Assembly (NCBI GenBank): GCA_020832305.1
Contig: JAFIEV010000017.1
Location: forward strand, 1 to 64,000
Length of the DNA stretch: 64,000 bases
Direction of reading: 5' to 3'
From: Cyclobacteriaceae bacterium
GTDB taxonomy: Bacteria > Bacteroidota > Bacteroidia > Cytophagales > Cyclobacteriaceae
Shown here piece after piece: positions 55,653 through 62,508 of this stretch. The notes below the pieces were generated by a model, which was not told the DNA's origin, did no database searches, and saw nothing but the letters and a program-made list of their open reading frames with translations. Position 1 is the stretch's first letter. Every line of letters begins with the position of its first letter. A program made the translations under genes and the position numbers.

Positions 55653-56693
55653 ATGAATCGACGAACTTTCCTTTCTTCAGCTTTGTGCTTAAGCACAGGT
55701 ATTTATGGTAAAAACTATATATACGCGCAAAAGGCTCCTGAAATTAAAGGCCTTATTCAAACCGTTAATGGAAGGATCAAAGCCAGTACCCTTGGAAATA
55801 CTTTGCCCCATGAGCACATCATGGTCGATTTTATCGGCGCTTCTGAGGTAAGTCCGCTCAGGTACGATGCACGCGAGGTATATCAACGTGCTCTCCCATT
55901 CCTCAATGAAATAACAGCGAGGGGCTGTAAAGCATTTTTTGACTGTACTCCGGCATTTCTTGGCAGGGATGTAAAAATTTTACAGCAGTTATCTAGAGCA
56001 AGCGGTCTTCATATTATCACCAACACGGGTTTTTACGGAGCCCGTGATAATGCTTTTATACCCTGGAATCTGATGCGAAAAGATTCAAACCAACTAGCTG
56101 CCATGTGGATTAAAGAGGCCCGAAATGGCATTGATGGTACAAATATTTTACCCGGCTTTATCAAAATTGGTGTCGACAAAGGAAGTTTATCCGCTTTTCA
56201 TGCATCTCTTGCCGAAGCAGCAGCACTTACCCACCTTAAAACCGGATTAACCATTGCCTCTCATACAGGACTTGCTGAAGCCGCTTATCAACAGGTAGAA
56301 ATTCTGAAAAAAAATAAAGTCAGACCGGAAGCCTTTATCTGGGTACATGCCCAGGAAGAAAAAGACAACCAGCATCATATAGCCTTGGCTAAACAGGGTG
56401 TTTGGATAGAATTTGATGGTATATCTGAAAAAATTGAATCAATAGAAATGCATATGAAGCATCTTTCAGAAATGAAGTCGGCAAACCTACTGCATAAAGT
56501 ATTAATTTCACAAGACTCAGGCTGGTATAATGTTGGAGAACCCAATGGTGGAAATTTTAAAAATTTCAACGCAATCTACGATATATTTTTACCCGCTATG
56601 CTGAAAAATCAATTTTCGGAAAGTGAAATCGATCTTCTCATGGTTCAAAATCCGGCCAAAGCATTTTCTATAGAAGTTAAAAAAATTAAATAA
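55653..56693 (+). CDS. Tat-exported phosphotriesterase-like amidohydrolase
   Basis: A 346-residue protein of the PTE (phosphotriesterase/PLL) family. The N-terminus MNRRTFLSSALCLS is a twin-arginine signal. The binuclear metal site is visible: HEH in LPHEHIMVD, the carboxylated Lys in GFIKIGVDKG, His in IASHTG and WVHAQE, and Asp in ISQDSGW. Many relatives are lactonases rather than phosphotriesterases, so the substrate is open. It stands alone, with a 222-base gap containing a terminator before the convergent PqaA-like gene. Confidence 0.9.
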   Translation: MNRRTFLSSALCLSTGIYGKNYIYAQKAPEIKGLIQTVNGRIKASTLGNTLPHEHIMVDFIGASEVSPLRYDAREVYQRALPFLNEITARGCKAFFDCTPAFLGRDVKILQQLSRASGLHIITNTGFYGARDNAFIPWNLMRKDSNQLAAMWIKEARNGIDGTNILPGFIKIGVDKGSLSAFHASLAEAAALTHLKTGLTIASHTGLAEAAYQQVEILKKNKVRPEAFIWVHAQEEKDNQHHIALAKQGVWIEFDGISEKIESIEMHMKHLSEMKSANLLHKVLISQDSGWYNVGEPNGGNFKNFNAIYDIFLPAMLKNQFSESEIDLLMVQNPAKAFSIEVKKIK

Positions 56694-56863
56694 CATAAAA
56701 AGCAGATATACCAGTACCCTGTTTCAATGAAGAACTGTGGTTTCAGGTAAAAGATATTTGATAAATTTTTTCGCTGACCCACAGTTGAGCGTTGATTAAA
56801 GCTTTGTTGATGACGGAAGCTCAGATAATTCGTGCCAATTAATCCTCTCTTATCAGAAAATGA

Positions 56864-56898
56864 AAAACAGGCCGCAAGATTTCTGCGGCTTGTTTTTG
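56864..56898. terminator. Bidirectional intrinsic terminator
   Basis: ACAGGCCGCA (56867-56876) pairs with TGCGGCTTGT (56884-56893), with one G-T pair, around a 7-base loop. It is followed on the plus strand by a T-run, and on the minus strand by T-rich sequence. It lies between the convergent phosphotriesterase-like and PqaA-like genes. The 170 bases before it show no gene. Confidence 0.8.
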
Positions 56899-56915
56899 TT
56901 AATTTCCTCACTAAA

Positions 56916-58385
56916 TCAGGGTAATGTGCCTTTTTGCTCAACCGGAACAAATTCATCAAAGGGATATACATCCGGGATCACTTTAACACCTGTTGTAAAC
57001 TTTAAGGGGACATCCCCAGGATAGGTTAGCTCAACGAAACAGGCCTTCCATCCTTTTTCAGGTTCCTCAAGTTTAACAGAATATTTACCGTCTGAGCTGA
57101 TCTCAATACTGCTCGAAACATATCCTGGACCAAAAACATCTATTCTGAAATCACGACTTTCGGGGTTATGCGCCTGCCACAGTTTAATAGAAGCGGGTGG
57201 ATTGGCAGGATCAGTTTCAATGGTAAAGCCTTCATCGTTTACTGACCATGAATACTGCGGTCTTTTTTCTTTATTTAATAATGATTGATAAAACGAGAGA
57301 ATAATTTGGGGAGCATCTGAGTTTTTTAAGCCATGCCCGGCATTAGGCACATAACACAAATGTTTTTCACCGATCAAGTCGTCCCAGTAAAATTGCCAGC
57401 TGTCGGGCAGAAAGAATTCGTCACCTGTGCCATTTAACAAAAGCTTTGGCATAGTGTAAAGATCAATAAAAGAGTAGGGTTCGGTAATGGAAACCAACTT
57501 GTCATACTCTTTAGAGCCTTGCCAATCCATAATGCCTTCATGTACATAGTTTCCCACAAAGGGAGCCCAAAACCCATAGCTCCTCCAATGATGATGAAAG
57601 GAAGGCACCAGGTTGAGAAGGTCTATTACGATGGGAATAATGCCTTCTACTCTATCATCAACCGCCGCGGTAGTCCAGGTAGTCCAGCCTCGTTTGGAGC
57701 CTCCTGCCACCACATATTTTTCAATGGGTTTTTGGTGTTCACTGTTGATTACTTCGCTTACCACATCCATGGCAGATACAGCTGCTTTAGTCATAGGTAA
57801 TCTGGCCAGCCATATGGCATCTTCATCTTTGGCGCCTCCTTCGAGAAACTTCCGCCAGCCGTAAGCGATTAATTCATCTTCAACCCTTTTACCGTAATCA
57901 TCCCCTGCGAAAGTTATAGGCTGAAACGGCACATTGTGCAAATTAGCTACAACAGATTGTGTTGCCAGCGCCATTTGTACACTGGTGCCATCAGCTTTTT
58001 CAGGTAGTCCTTTCTCTTTGTTACCGCCTCCAATCATCAACATAGCCGTCTGGTGTTTTACTTCATCTGGCACAACAAGGGTAACCCAATGCCACCATTC
58101 TGTTTCATCGACAAGGTCTGTAGTTAGCCAGTTTTGAGAAACCATTCTTACTGCATGATAAGTATATCCCTTCTCTTTGCTGGTATACATCAATTCATAT
58201 TTAAATGCAGGGTCTTTGGCGTGGACATAATCATATAAAATAAACCCGGTACCATCTTCCTGAGCAACCTTTTGTGAGGTATCCGTTGAGCAACTAATAA
58301 ATAAGATAAGCAATAACAAACTGCTCAGTGATTTTAACGATAATGTTTTTGTGCCAAATTTTAAATGTAGTGTATTTTTCTCCAT
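56916..58385 (-). CDS. PhoPQ-activated pathogenicity-related (PqaA) family lipoprotein
   Basis: A 489-residue predicted lipoprotein with a signal (SLSSLLLLILFISC, lipobox Cys) and an alpha/beta-hydrolase fold. It carries the PqaA pattern: EWWHWVTLVVPDEV, LMIGGGN, the nucleophile VVAGGSKRGWTTW, LLNGTGDEFFLPDS (acid) and YVPNAGHGL (His). The family was named after Salmonella PqaA. Enzymatic substrate is unknown, although the triad suggests esterase or peptidase activity. I use the ATG at 58385; the frame nine codons longer adds residues before the signal. Its start is divergent from the Cys-rich small protein. Confidence 0.88.
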   Translation of the reverse strand: MEKNTLHLKFGTKTLSLKSLSSLLLLILFISCSTDTSQKVAQEDGTGFILYDYVHAKDPAFKYELMYTSKEKGYTYHAVRMVSQNWLTTDLVDETEWWHWVTLVVPDEVKHQTAMLMIGGGNKEKGLPEKADGTSVQMALATQSVVANLHNVPFQPITFAGDDYGKRVEDELIAYGWRKFLEGGAKDEDAIWLARLPMTKAAVSAMDVVSEVINSEHQKPIEKYVVAGGSKRGWTTWTTAAVDDRVEGIIPIVIDLLNLVPSFHHHWRSYGFWAPFVGNYVHEGIMDWQGSKEYDKLVSITEPYSFIDLYTMPKLLLNGTGDEFFLPDSWQFYWDDLIGEKHLCYVPNAGHGLKNSDAPQIILSFYQSLLNKEKRPQYSWSVNDEGFTIETDPANPPASIKLWQAHNPESRDFRIDVFGPGYVSSSIEISSDGKYSVKLEEPEKGWKACFVELTYPGDVPLKFTTGVKVIPDVYPFDEFVPVEQKGTLP

Positions 58386-58491
58386 AGTCTTTATTTTAAA
58401 AATCCCGATCAATCAATTAGTTTTATTTCATACTTTATTCCTTTCCAAAACTAATTTAAATCGCTTAAAGATAAAATACCGAAAGAATATT

Positions 58492-58499
58492 TACCTTTG
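58492..58499 (+). promoter_or_regulatory. -7 element abutting the start of the small Cys protein gene
   Basis: TACCTTTG fits TAnnTTTG exactly but ends only four bases before the ATG at 58504. Transcription would start at or next to the start codon, implying a leaderless message. No TTG is seen at the -33 position. Confidence 0.45.
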
Positions 58500-58503
58500 T
58501 ATA

Positions 58504-58878
58504 ATGAAGCGATGGGCGCCGATATTACTGCTTTCTGTTATTCTTTTAGGAAGTCTGAAAGATGCCGTAGTGTATGGTACCTTTTTTCTTAACCGCCAGT
58601 ATATAGCATCAAATCTTTGCAAAGAAAGATATATCAGTACTTCGTCCTGCGGTGGGTCCTGTATTTTAATGGAATTAATTGAGCAAAACCATTCAGAAAC
58701 CCCCGAGGCACCAACACGAATTGGTGAAGAACAAATACAATTATTCCAGATACCTTCAAAGAATATCGTTTCTGCGTGTCCATCAGAAACCATAGACTCT
58801 GTCATGCCTGTTCTCAGTAATGATGGATTGATCTTAAATGCCTTCTTACAAGGGGTTTTTCATCCCCCCAAATCCTGA
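58504..58878 (+). CDS. Small membrane-anchored Cys-motif protein next to the TonB receptor
   Basis: A 124-residue protein with one N-terminal membrane segment or signal anchor (PILLLSVILLGSL) followed by FFLNRQYIASNLCKER and a cysteine cluster SSCGGSC (C49, C53; further C39). I recall similar short Bacteroidota proteins of the form YI..NLCEN....M.CNGKCYL beside TonB receptor genes; function is unknown. Three cysteines on the outer face could bind a soft metal. It ends 118 bases before the OprC-like receptor and shares its strand. The ATG at 58504 is used; the longer frame upstream overlaps the divergent PqaA-like gene and has no coding character. Confidence 0.72.
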   Translation: MKRWAPILLLSVILLGSLKDAVVYGTFFLNRQYIASNLCKERYISTSSCGGSCILMELIEQNHSETPEAPTRIGEEQIQLFQIPSKNIVSACPSETIDSVMPVLSNDGLILNAFLQGVFHPPKS

Positions 58879-58996
58879 TTATTTTATTCAATTTCTCAGT
58901 TTTATTTTTTTCACAACGCTGACCTGGTCGTTGAAGATGATGCTTATTGATGCGCACATCATTATTCTCCTGATGGGTTGGGCCAAATTTAATGTT

Positions 58997-61267
58997 ATGA
59001 ATAAATCAATCAATTATATATATATTATCAGCCTTGTCTTGATGCTGCAATGGGTTTGTACTATTTCACATGCCCAAACAAATTTGCATAGGATCCAACT
59101 GAAAGATGCCCTAACAGGGGAATCTGTAGTAGGGGCAGGTTTTACATATGGCGGTAAACATGGAATTTCAGATACCAACGGCTATATAGAAATTAGCTAT
59201 CGTGAGGGAGCCGAGCTACATCTTTCTCATCTGTCTTACGGGCAATGGCATGTAAAAGAAACTGCGGTAAAGCATGCCCTTGAGTTGGGATTTATTCTTT
59301 GGAAAGAAATACCTAAAACCCTTTTACCTGTAACCATAATTTCTATAAGAGAACCGGGAAATAGCACACTAAATATCGATGCTCACGAACGATTGTCGCA
59401 TGATGCGGGTGCAGTACTCAATCAGAATCCCATGTTTTCGAGCATCCGAAAAAGTGCATCGTATGGTTTTGATCCGGTATTCAGAGGGTTTAAATATGAG
59501 CAACTTAATATAGTGATTGACGGTGTTCAAACGGCCATTGCGGCCTGCCCAAACAGAATGGACCCGCCTACAAGTCAGGTAGCTTTGAATATGATGGAAA
59601 ATATACATATTTACAAAGGTCCTCATGCCCTCAGGTACGGCAATTCATTTGGCGCTACAATTAATTTTGTGCCTGTAAGTCCAGGATTTTCTGAAAAACA
59701 GGATTTTTTCGGACGTGCCTCCAGCCTGTATGAAAGTAATGGTAATGTTTTGAAAAATGAACTAAATCTCGGCCTTCGCAACCGCAATTATGAATTCAAT
59801 ATATATGGTGCTTATGCACAAGGATCTGACTACAAAGATGGAGAAGGTGTGAAAATTCCTGCAAACTTTTTACGATACAGCCTGGGCGCATCACTGGCAT
59901 GGAAGCCGGGTCAAAATGATATGTTGCAGCTATCGGTAAACCGAAATATAGCCCAAAACACAGATTTCCCCGCCTTGCCCATGGACCTGATTCGCGATGA
60001 CACCTGGCTTATCAATGCGAAATATGATCTTGAGTTCAAATCCAGACATCTTAAAAAATGGTCAAGTGCAGCCTTTGGTTCATTTGTAGACCACCTGATG
60101 AGTAATGCGCTCCGTGAAATATCTCCTCGGATGGTTAATGCCAAAACGCCTGCTACCACCGAAGCGTTTGGAGGTAGAACAGAATTGAGTTTTGTTTTCA
60201 ATAGTTCAGAAATGTACACTGGTTTAGATACCCGGTCTGAATCAGCCTCTGGCATAAGAGAACGTGAATTTCTTATGGGCCCAAATGCAGGAAATATCCT
60301 CTACGATAATGCCTGGCAGGACTCGAGGATTACAAAAACTGCTGTTTTTAATGAATTTCATCTGTTTTCAGGTAAAACCCGTTGGGTAATGTCAGGTCGT
60401 CTCGAATTAAACCACGCAAGGTTGGCAGACCCTCAGACAGAATACCAGCAGCATAATGAAACGGAAAATATCATGCAGGTCAACCCCTCTGTCAGTACAG
60501 GTGTTTCCAGAGAGCTGAGCCATAATCTGCAAATGGGTTTCTGGCTGGGTCGAAGTCAGCGAAGCGGTAGCCTCACCGAGCGCTTTATCAATTATTTTCC
60601 GGTTGGGCTCGATCCTTACGAAATGCTGGGAAATGCAGACCTGAAGCCTGAAGTCAACCACCAGGCCGATTTGAATATGTCATTTAAAACCGCTAATTCA
60701 TATCTGGAAGTAAATCTATTTGCGGCTTATTTAAATGATTTTATTTTAGGCAGCATCGATCCTGAAATCACGCCTCGCTTTCCTTCCAGTCCGGGTGTAA
60801 GGGTATTTGGCAATTTAGACAGGGCCTTGTTAAGTGGATTTGAGTTTAGCTGGCGACAGACTTTTACCGATTACCTGGAGCAGAATTTAATGTTGGCCTA
60901 CACCTATGGAAAAGATCTGGTACAAAATGAGGCGCTTCCGGAAATTTCCCCTATGGATCTTCGGTACAGACTAACAGCTAAGTTTTTCAACAATAAACTG
61001 GGTATAAGCGGGGCATTCAGGCGTGTAATTGCGCAAAACCGCTATAACCAGAGTTTTGGAGAGCGACGCACCCCCGGCTTTAGTTTACTCGATTTTGACG
61101 CTTTGTATCGATTTAATTCCTGGCTGCGGGCTTCTGCAGGAGTAAATAACATCCTGAATATGCATTATTACGAACACCTCAACCGCTCTTTTGCCGCTCA
61201 ACGGGAAAGACCCATTTTTGCACCAGGGAGAAATGTTTTTGTATCATTGAGCATAGATCTTCGTTGA
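58997..61267 (+). CDS. TonB-dependent receptor, OprC/NosA-like (putative copper receptor)
   Basis: A 756-residue outer-membrane receptor: signal peptide (MNKSINYIYIISLVLMLQWV ... SHA), a carboxypeptidase-like N-terminal domain (about 28-100), a plug (about 125-235, with FDPVFRGFKYEQLNIVIDGV and IYKGPHALRYGNSFGA) and a 22-strand barrel ending RNVFVSLSIDLR. The plug has CPNRMDPPT, giving a CxxxM motif (C184, M188). The barrel has VDHLMSN, an HxM motif (H366, M368), about 182 residues later. This is the ligand set described for the copper receptor OprC. The ATG at 58997 gives the signal peptide; the earlier frame does not. Copper as cargo is inferred. Confidence 0.85.
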   Translation: MNKSINYIYIISLVLMLQWVCTISHAQTNLHRIQLKDALTGESVVGAGFTYGGKHGISDTNGYIEISYREGAELHLSHLSYGQWHVKETAVKHALELGFILWKEIPKTLLPVTIISIREPGNSTLNIDAHERLSHDAGAVLNQNPMFSSIRKSASYGFDPVFRGFKYEQLNIVIDGVQTAIAACPNRMDPPTSQVALNMMENIHIYKGPHALRYGNSFGATINFVPVSPGFSEKQDFFGRASSLYESNGNVLKNELNLGLRNRNYEFNIYGAYAQGSDYKDGEGVKIPANFLRYSLGASLAWKPGQNDMLQLSVNRNIAQNTDFPALPMDLIRDDTWLINAKYDLEFKSRHLKKWSSAAFGSFVDHLMSNALREISPRMVNAKTPATTEAFGGRTELSFVFNSSEMYTGLDTRSESASGIREREFLMGPNAGNILYDNAWQDSRITKTAVFNEFHLFSGKTRWVMSGRLELNHARLADPQTEYQQHNETENIMQVNPSVSTGVSRELSHNLQMGFWLGRSQRSGSLTERFINYFPVGLDPYEMLGNADLKPEVNHQADLNMSFKTANSYLEVNLFAAYLNDFILGSIDPEITPRFPSSPGVRVFGNLDRALLSGFEFSWRQTFTDYLEQNLMLAYTYGKDLVQNEALPEISPMDLRYRLTAKFFNNKLGISGAFRRVIAQNRYNQSFGERRTPGFSLLDFDALYRFNSWLRASAGVNNILNMHYYEHLNRSFAAQRERPIFAPGRNVFVSLSIDLR

Positions 61268-61359
61268 AACAAAATATATTTAACATCGACATCTCGTTTT
61301 GGAAGCCAGAAAATTAATCATTTAATTGCCTCATTACACGGTCTCTTACAATTTGATTC

Positions 61360-62508
61360 ATGGAAATAGTACTGGTTGACAAACCTGAAATATGGGCAAA
61401 CCTTCATCCGATAACACTTACACGCCCGCTAAGTGATATTCGACTTGGTATGTTTACCATCCTGGAAAAATGGCAAAAATGGTTTCCGCAGGCAAACATA
61501 TTACAGCATTCCTGTGAATGGCTTACAAAGAATAAGCTTAACAGATCTGATGTAGTTTTGTACATCGACAGTTCATTGCTGCCCGATGAAGGTTTAGTGA
61601 AAGCCATTGATCAATTGCGATCTGAGGAGGCAATCTATGTCCAAGGTTTACCCATGGTGGCATATGGGGATCTGGAGGAAAGACCATATAGAAGAAGAAT
61701 AGACCTGGAGGGTAACAGAATTCAATATTTATGGGATTTGAAAAAACATCTGCCACTTGCGATTCAAATGGATCTTCAAATATTATGTCTGCCTGCTTTG
61801 CAAGTGCAAACTATTGATGGCTTTACGCACTTTTATAATGCAAAAAATGTTTTTGTCGAAGAAGGCGTTAGAATAAAATCTGCAGTTATAAATGCGGAAA
61901 ACGGTCCTGTTTACATCGGTAAAAATTCTCAAATACATGAATTAGCCGTGATACAGGGACCTTTTTTATGTGGAGAGGGATGCCATATTTATCCGGGAAG
62001 CAGAATAAGGGGAAATGTAGCACTCGGTTCTGGCAGCAATGTCGGTGGTGAGCTTAAAAATGTGCAATTTCAAGGGAATAGTAACAAAATCCACGAGGGT
62101 TACCTCGGTGATGCCTTTATCGGAGAATGGTGTAACCTCGGGTCTGGCACTACCAATTCAAACCTTAAAAATACCCTGGGCAATGTAAAACTCTACAATA
62201 TGCATGCAGGGGAGTTTTTAAACTCAGGCCTGCAAAAACTAGGTGTTTTTATGGGTGATTATGTATGTACCGGTATTCATACCTTAATACCCACCGGAGC
62301 AGTATATGGCACCATGTGCAACATTATCCATCAGGATGGATTTGCGCCAAAATATCTGCCTCCATTTTCCTGGATTTCTGCGGCACAACGCTTTAATCTG
62401 GAAAAAGCCATGCAAACGGCGCGATTGCTAAAGTCGCTAAAATCCGCCAATCTCAGCAAAGAGGAAGCCTTTATTCTAGAAGAAATATATAAATGGGCGA
62501 GTTCTTGA
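61360..62508 (+). CDS. GlmU-like sugar nucleotidyltransferase family protein
   Basis: A 382-residue protein of the Bacteroidota GlmU-related family. The N-terminal part (residues 1-170: VLVDKPEIWANLHPITLTRP, LSDIRLGMFTILEKW) resembles a degenerate nucleotidyltransferase. The C-terminal half is a left-handed beta helix of hexapeptide repeats (VYIGKNSQIHELAVIQGPF ... LGSGTTNSNLKNTLGNVKLY). The usual pyrophosphorylase signature GxGTRM is not seen, so substrate and activity are uncertain. Acyl- or acetyltransfer is an alternative. It stands between the receptor and the aldo/keto reductase, with no shared promoter visible. Confidence 0.85.
   Translation: MEIVLVDKPEIWANLHPITLTRPLSDIRLGMFTILEKWQKWFPQANILQHSCEWLTKNKLNRSDVVLYIDSSLLPDEGLVKAIDQLRSEEAIYVQGLPMVAYGDLEERPYRRRIDLEGNRIQYLWDLKKHLPLAIQMDLQILCLPALQVQTIDGFTHFYNAKNVFVEEGVRIKSAVINAENGPVYIGKNSQIHELAVIQGPFLCGEGCHIYPGSRIRGNVALGSGSNVGGELKNVQFQGNSNKIHEGYLGDAFIGEWCNLGSGTTNSNLKNTLGNVKLYNMHAGEFLNSGLQKLGVFMGDYVCTGIHTLIPTGAVYGTMCNIIHQDGFAPKYLPPFSWISAAQRFNLEKAMQTARLLKSLKSANLSKEEAFILEEIYKWASS

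Follow-up and report, generated by a model that had tools for sequence, protein, structure and literature searches.

In Bordetella pertussis the gene of the TonB-dependent receptor bfrG/crtA is preceded by a copper-responsive upstream open reading frame (ORF) encoding CruR, the DUF2946 family protein (PF11162; PMC9426467). As described there, CruR carries a CXXC motif followed after 45 residues by RAPP, the receptor is on at low copper and is switched off via Rho once copper binds, and the function of CruR depends on its cysteines, its prolines and the spacing between them alike. A cruR homologue also precedes oprC of Pseudomonas aeruginosa, and the family heads copper operons containing OprC-type receptors, MbnPH or PepSY_TM (PMC9426467); arrest at RAPP has been shown in vitro (PMC12992588). 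CutF of Rhodobacter capsulatus similarly has a CxxxC motif and C-terminal prolines; it acts by being exported as it is translated and by way of an RNA stem-loop (PMC9973294), and the gene that it switches on is that of an oxidase for copper detoxification (PMC9973294, PMC8456105). Little is known of copper uptake and its regulation in the Bacteroidota. An OprC-like receptor with a CxxxM-HxM site has been proposed to take up copper in Bizionia argentinensis (G2EC70; PMC11213822). Many CutF-like proteins are reported from the phylum, and TonB-like proteins rank high among the genes adjacent to such proteins overall (PMC9973294), whereas a survey of RAPP/RGPP leaders placed no Bacteroidota in its copper-factor class (PMC12992588). 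Here we describe two adjacent genes on the forward strand of a 64,000-nucleotide stretch of a Cyclobacteriaceae bacterium (assembly GCA_020832305.1, contig JAFIEV010000017.1, positions 1 to 64,000; the window): a small leader ORF at 58504..58878 and the gene of an OprC-type receptor at 58997..61267. The window protein has the parts of CruR and CutF, in the same order and in front of the same kind of gene, and for this reason we read it as a nascent-chain sensor. From its sequence, and by analogy with those two proteins, it is likely that the pair forms a copper-uptake unit under cis control, with the small gene acting as a cis-acting nascent-chain copper sensor for the receptor gene.

Anatomy and conservation of the leader

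The small gene runs from an ATG at 58504 to a stop codon at 58876-58878 and encodes 124 residues. An N-terminal hydrophobic segment, which would serve for export or anchoring, is followed by a head of the form C-x9-CxGxC, a variable linker and a terminal FHPP-KS. The head consists of Cys39, Cys49 and Cys53 in an SSCGGSC context (codons 58618..58662) and is a putative Cu(I) site, while F119-H120-P121-P122 (58858..58869), two codons ahead of the stop in the C-terminus FHPPKS, is a putative ribosome-arrest motif. A preliminary description of this DNA had already recognised a membrane-anchored small protein with these three cysteines, and they are found as it placed them; it did not mention the Pro-Pro near the stop, which is as invariant in the family as the cysteines are. 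No match to the protein was found in Pfam, NCBIfam or the PDB at an E-value of 1, and there is a single match in its own genome. A structural model has a confident N-terminal helix (residues 4-29) and, past the cysteines, a short helix (52-64), after which its confidence is moderate to low. Moderate to low confidence past the membrane helix is as expected of a sensor that is read while nascent.

A BLAST search with the small protein through 59 genomes, its own and those of 58 relatives, found 40 places, including the window gene itself, spread over 30 genomes. All 39 places outside its own genome have a C..CxxxC head and Pro-Pro near the stop, within 11 residues in 38 and at 24 residues in one. 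When 39 near-relative leaders, including that of the window, are aligned, no column is invariant but those of C39, C49, C53, P121 and P122, with G51 and L55 nearly so. Since these leaders had been selected by filters for cysteines and PP, their alignment is no independent test, and a profile free of this bias was therefore built from 37 rows and 58 columns of N-terminal sequence, with the C-terminus left out. Of 392 Bacteroidota genomes searched with it, 155 gave a match. In 80 loci hand-picked for genus diversity among the matches listed (to about E 1e-11), every member has CxxxC and a PP no more than 8 residues from the stop; as background, 11 of 440 other genes from the same loci (at least 100 residues) have PP in their last 15 residues.

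The family set comprised 193 distinct leaders, profile rows included, obtained from 197 sequences searched (the window stretch and loci L031-L066, L097-L176 and L212-L291). CxxxC is present in 193 of 193, and the third cysteine precedes it by 6-12 residues in 192 of the 192 scored, lying exactly at -10 in 97%. In 191 of the 193, PP is found among the final 14 residues, and in the other two it lies slightly further up, the C-terminal motif being FHPP in 80 and FRPP in 35. The distance from CxxxC to PP is 66.7 ± 1.8 residues in 192 of the 193 (leader L261, which has an aberrant end, was left out of this count, though it is kept in the count of receptors with leaders given below). At the 28 positions scored before F.PP (-30 to -3) identity ranges from 10% to 43% and exceeds 28% at the last of them alone. 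A fixed length with a largely free sequence fits the needs of a nascent-chain sensor, unlike those of a folded carrier. Tandem leader ORFs stand before a single operon, as if they were stacked sensors, in L051, L054 and L115 and at two G304 places (L099).

Gene order, promoter box and intergenic gap

The preliminary description had suggested checking the co-occurrence of the two families across the Bacteroidota. A leader lies within 900 nt upstream of 72 of the 78 named OprC-type receptors that have enough upstream DNA. By a looser test, for any ORF with at least two cysteines and a PP end, the figures were 72 of 78 for the receptors (at least one of them, L251, through a spurious frame), compared with 6 of 219 for other genes and, where the opposite strand was tested, 2 of 75.

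The next three same-strand genes were scored behind 119 leaders (80 sampled and 39 filtered), with Pfam names taken from representatives. A TonB receptor, MbnP, MbnH or a Cys/His/Met-rich protein is among them in 105 of the 119, namely 68 of 80 in the profile sample and 37 of 39 in the filtered set; 'MbnH' here is a di-haem CCP_MauG protein so called for its position beside MbnP. TonB receptors are found behind 62 leaders (with the OprC motif in 30 and without it in 33, one leader having both), MbnP behind 38, MbnH behind 35 and the Cys/His/Met-rich protein, which is probably an outer-membrane protein, behind 32. MbnP is the first gene behind 29 of the 119, second only to TonB receptors, and is often followed by MbnH and the Cys/His/Met-rich protein (as in L036 and L098). 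Six loci were scanned from the 14 leaders outside the 105. SCO1/SenC was present in two. Of the other four, one has DJ-1 and an outer-membrane barrel, one an AraC regulator and superoxide dismutase (SOD) and one a weak Plug match, while the last yielded nothing. A second type of receptor, with C-[TV]-D-[KRG]-M and an HxM 182-183 residues on, was seen in L064, L105, L107, L108, L113, L130, L146, L151 and L168, where it comes after a leader and a protein of 264-308 residues. The latter is YtkA-like in the two loci tested, which have receptors of the CTDKM type, scoring above the cut-off in one and below it in the other. These receptors may be another copper receptor class.

The consensus of the Bacteroidota -7 promoter box is TAnnTTTG. 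The forward-strand sequence TACCTTTG, at 58492..58499, matches this exactly and ends 4 nt ahead of the leader ATG. A start could be assigned to 149 leaders. In the 20 nt preceding it, 39 such boxes have their end, where about 2.4 would be expected, and in 27 of the 149 the box ends 4-7 nt ahead of the ATG, a position that suggests a leaderless or nearly leaderless mRNA. Between leader and receptor gene lies a gap of 118 nt (58879..58996, forward strand), in which neither a -7 box nor a terminator-like site was found on the + strand. The 153 related gaps (40-300 nt, measured to the next long gene) have a median of 107 nt and hold two -7 boxes against 11.2 expected. The presence of the box before the leader and its depletion from the gap indicate that the leader and the downstream gene are probably on one transcript, which may begin at or near the leader ATG. 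By gene order and promoter box together, the leader would be the first gene of a copper operon.

As regards the RNA, the gaps behind leaders have a mean z of -2.41 compared with -1.54 for other co-directional gaps, with 49 versus 35 of 90 below -2 (p 0.003). A larger structure signal had come from comparison with control stretches inside genes; it was overstated, and the fairer control of co-directional gaps reduced it. A shared RNA element in the gap was also considered and rejected, as no common hairpin or long shared word was seen across the gaps. With Rfam, 56500-61400 of the window gave one match, which lies outside the gap and far below the gathering score, and ten loci searched at the gathering score gave one, a DUF805 RNA elsewhere in L157.

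The receptor and a second leader with the same end

The receptor gene (58997..61267, forward strand) encodes a TonB-dependent receptor of 756 residues with the Pfam domains Plug and TonB_dep_Rec_b-barrel. Its reading frame is open from 58838 on, overlapping the small gene, and the ATG at 58997 was chosen as the start because the residues after it resemble, by eye, a signal peptide. CPNRM in the plug (59546..59560) contributes C184 and M188 and HLM in the barrel (60092..60100) contributes H366 and M368. The preliminary description had likened these motifs to the copper site of OprC, and on alignment all four residues fall on the OprC ligands, C184 and M188 on C143 and M147, and H366 and M368 on H323 and M325. 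The distance from C184 to H366 is 182 residues, close to the 180 that the preliminary description gave for OprC and that is borne out by the published ligand positions (C143/M147 and H323/M325; PMC8610252). OprC is the top match of the receptor in the PDB by sequence (E 2e-36); in this alignment CPNRM is paired with CPNRM and HLM with HIM. A Foldseek search with the receptor model returned OprC for all of the top 28 chains, at about 20% identity in the alignment. The AlphaFold model, made from 7 sequences, has a mean pLDDT of 68.8 and a poor plug. The best NCBIfam model for the receptor is the copper-receptor equivalog TIGR01778, with 233 bits against a cut-off of 472, and it is therefore named OprC-type here rather than an equivalog. 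In the single loop examined, the Met-rich SSMMPMPMA of OprC, with four methionines, aligns with SPRMVNAK, which has one. No FoxB/PepSY_TM gene was found beside the receptor in a Pfam scan of the window.

To place the receptor among its relatives, an alignment of 7 receptors was scanned over named bacterial and archaeal genomes with patterns consisting of CPNRMD or an adjoining stretch, HxM being no part of them; 282 stretches were confirmed and the best 80 kept. Judged from the record titles, these best 80 all come from the Bacteroidota, Chlorobi or Ignavibacteria. HxM is present in 80 of 80, at 182 residues past the CxxxM cysteine in 79 and at 183 in one. On sequence grounds, the CxxxM-HxM site of the receptor is more than chance. 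Sequence, modelled fold and site conservation support its assignment as an OprC-type copper importer, in keeping with the OprC/NosA-like receptor of the preliminary description, and this half of the locus is a further member of an already known family.

The DNA pattern for CPNRMDP occurs at 33 places in 33 of the 392 Bacteroidota genomes, one of which (L194) proved to be a chance match, leaving 32 receptors. Twenty of them have a C-x9-CxGxC leader (L161, L177-L193, L205 and L206). Ten others, from other Bacteroidota lineages (L195-L204), follow a Cys/His-rich leader, such as that at L195:415-831. This second kind ends in [IV]FHPP with 52-54 residues from the last CxC to PP in ten of ten, and when the profiles of the two kinds are compared, 25 C-terminal columns around IFHPP align (probability 77%) while the heads do not. 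A further FHPP leader stands ahead of the receptor in L293, and none was spotted upstream of that in L292; the receptors of L292 and L293, which are more distant and have open frames 661 and 638 codons long, carry CPNRMDPP in their plugs and no HxM at the expected distance. On balance, we lean slightly towards the view that the Bacteroidota have a sensor class of their own, in which a shared F[HR]PP arrest module would be joined to at least two heads (C-x9-CxGxC, at 67 residues, and Cys/His-rich CxC, at 52-54), on mRNAs starting at or near the leader ATG and before operons of OprC-type receptors, MbnP/MbnH and SCO1.

Proposed mechanism, alternatives and known systems

The anatomy, conservation and spacing of the leader, its gene order and linkage to copper genes, and the position of the promoter box are observed; the mechanism that we propose adds to these copper binding, a pause, the direction in which the pause acts and a route to the receptor gene. 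The receptor would import copper over the outer membrane by means of its OprC-type CxxxM-HxM site. The leader ORF upstream would be translated first, its N-terminal hydrophobic segment directing the nascent chain to the membrane, where the three cysteines would sense Cu(I). As the downstream genes look like uptake genes, the logic of CruR would be expected, with arrest and expression at low copper. When copper is scarce, the ribosome would pause at the terminal F-H-P-P and the pause would keep the receptor gene expressed; with copper on the cysteines the pause would be relieved, the ribosome would finish and leave, and receptor expression would fall. Shut-off would probably occur either through transcription termination in or after the leader, as with CruR, or through an alteration of the intergenic RNA. 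The longer spacer suggests that the cysteines would be out of the ribosome, and perhaps out of the membrane channel too, by the time PP reaches the catalytic centre.

Several observations weigh against this mechanism or its details. With 67 residues in the spacer, compared with 45 in CruR and about 40 in CutF, the mechanism may differ from theirs, and FHPP is not RAPP, the motif for which arrest has been shown in the case of CruR. The RNA of the window gap has no significant structure (z +0.63), and the excess of structure in leader gaps over co-directional gaps is only modest. The 3' end of the leaders has a strong excess of C over G, a rut-like sign, but as a Rho/rut signature this was discarded, since the excess is small after synonymous re-drawing, is not significant at third positions and is mostly due to amino-acid composition. 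Six of the 78 OprC-type receptors (L220, L229, L265, L280, L285 and L286) have no leader within 900 nt, although in L229 there is one about 2.9 kb upstream. The AraC regulator, SOD and DJ-1 found among the leader neighbours are not copper genes, and 4 of the 80 sampled leaders are followed by a gene of opposite orientation. The 80 loci were, moreover, hand-picked from the stronger matches listed.

The preliminary description had taken the small protein for a periplasmic metal handler that, together with the receptor, might form an outer-to-inner copper delivery route. That it binds a metal is plausible, because its three cysteines are invariant and its gene is strongly linked to copper genes; it is the delivery role that is not sustained, as a poorly conserved linker of fixed length and an invariant Pro-Pro close to the stop fit a cis-acting sensor. 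A membrane-anchored periplasmic protein accepting copper from the receptor and handing it on inward would account for a C-x9-CxGxC head that is invariant and follows an N-terminal membrane segment, and for the strong linkage to copper-uptake genes, and CutF too was first taken for a possible chaperone (PMC8456105). The C-terminal half is, however, poorly conserved save for its terminal F[HR]PP and its fixed length, and the leader heads systems that need no common carrier, such as MbnP/MbnH, receptors of differing types and SCO1. Moreover, before CPNRM receptors elsewhere the window kind of leader is replaced by one with another head and the same FHPP end. The linker, the Pro-Pro, the gene order and the exchange of heads together outweigh a carrier or chaperone as the leading explanation, and we consider that role unlikely.

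The leader might also be a nascent-chain sensor coupled to these operons that responds to a signal other than copper, such as the thiol redox state of the envelope or export status. Three cysteines are able to form disulfides, and upstream ORFs with a C-terminal proline have been described before sec genes in the Bacteroidota (PMC10987492), but copper systems dominate the genes downstream of the leader and the comparable cysteines of CruR and CutF are needed for the response to copper (PMC9426467, PMC9973294); a non-copper signal therefore seems very unlikely. Doubt could equally be directed at the receptor, which falls under the TIGR01778 cut-off and retains one methionine in the loop that is Met-rich in OprC, as if it imported another metal or a metal complex and had inherited its CxxxM-HxM. 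Against this stand the four ligands at fixed spacing in 80 of 80 relatives, OprC as the nearest structure both by sequence and by fold, and the presence before 72 of 78 OprC-type receptors of the kind of leader that heads copper operons, and a different substrate appears very unlikely. A copper-sensing leader before an OprC-type copper receptor is the reading that we hold likely.

Copper-sensing leaders, and CutF-like proteins in the Bacteroidota, were already known. A literature search by titles and the openings of abstracts, in mostly open-access sources, found nothing naming a family with an F[HR]PP end or a leader of OprC-type receptors in the Bacteroidota. As far as we have seen, the new features are a head of the form C-x9-CxGxC, a spacer of 67 residues, an end in F[HR]PP, the almost constant association with OprC-type receptors and the replacement of one head by another while the end is kept, although the family may be one of the 29 CutF-like clusters already listed (PMC9973294). 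If the proposal is correct, one small ORF marks copper-acquisition operons in a large part of the phylum and allows their substrates to be predicted, and the control of copper by ribosome arrest extends to the Bacteroidota. The distances from metal site to arrest site, at 67, 52-54, 45 and about 40 residues, would then be a natural experiment on how metal is sensed at the peptidyl-transferase centre.

Among the described systems, G2EC70 resembles the window receptor in being a Bacteroidota receptor with CxxxM-HxM, and no leader ORF is mentioned with it in the available text of PMC11213822. In OprC/NosA of the Proteobacteria the CxxxM of the plug and the HxM of the barrel align with those of the window receptor and the fold is the same, and oprC too has a leader before it, cruR (PMC9426467); they differ in that one Met loop is reduced in the window receptor and its putative copper leader is from another family. 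Of the filters used for CutF-like proteins, the small protein passes those on length, with 124 residues (<150), on PP, at 121-122 (last 15), on a same-strand gene, 118 nt away (<1,000), and on CxxxC, as C49-G-G-S-C53; the N-terminal signal peptide that is also asked for may correspond to the helix modelled at residues 4-29. In CutF itself, however, CxxxC spans residues 69-73 and about 40 residues, by our count, separate C73 from the C-terminal prolines (PMC8456105), compared with 67 in the window family, which also has a fixed third cysteine and downstream genes that resemble uptake genes. Membership of DUF2946 was rejected, there being no PF11162 match at E 1 for the window protein and none among 39 family members; DUF2946, a mostly Proteobacterial family, is rare in the Bacteroidota, where it occurs in 5 of 148 genomes (two over the cut-off), and all five members end in RAPP or RGPP and a short tail. 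With CruR the window family nevertheless shares a small protein with a hydrophobic N-terminal segment, putatively an export signal, a gene directly before that of a TonB-dependent receptor, a putative metal motif of cysteines whose distance to a stop-proximal Pro-Pro is fixed, and a place at the head of copper operons, while C-x9-CxGxC, about 67 residues to PP and F[HR]PP take the place of CXXC, 45 residues and RAPP.

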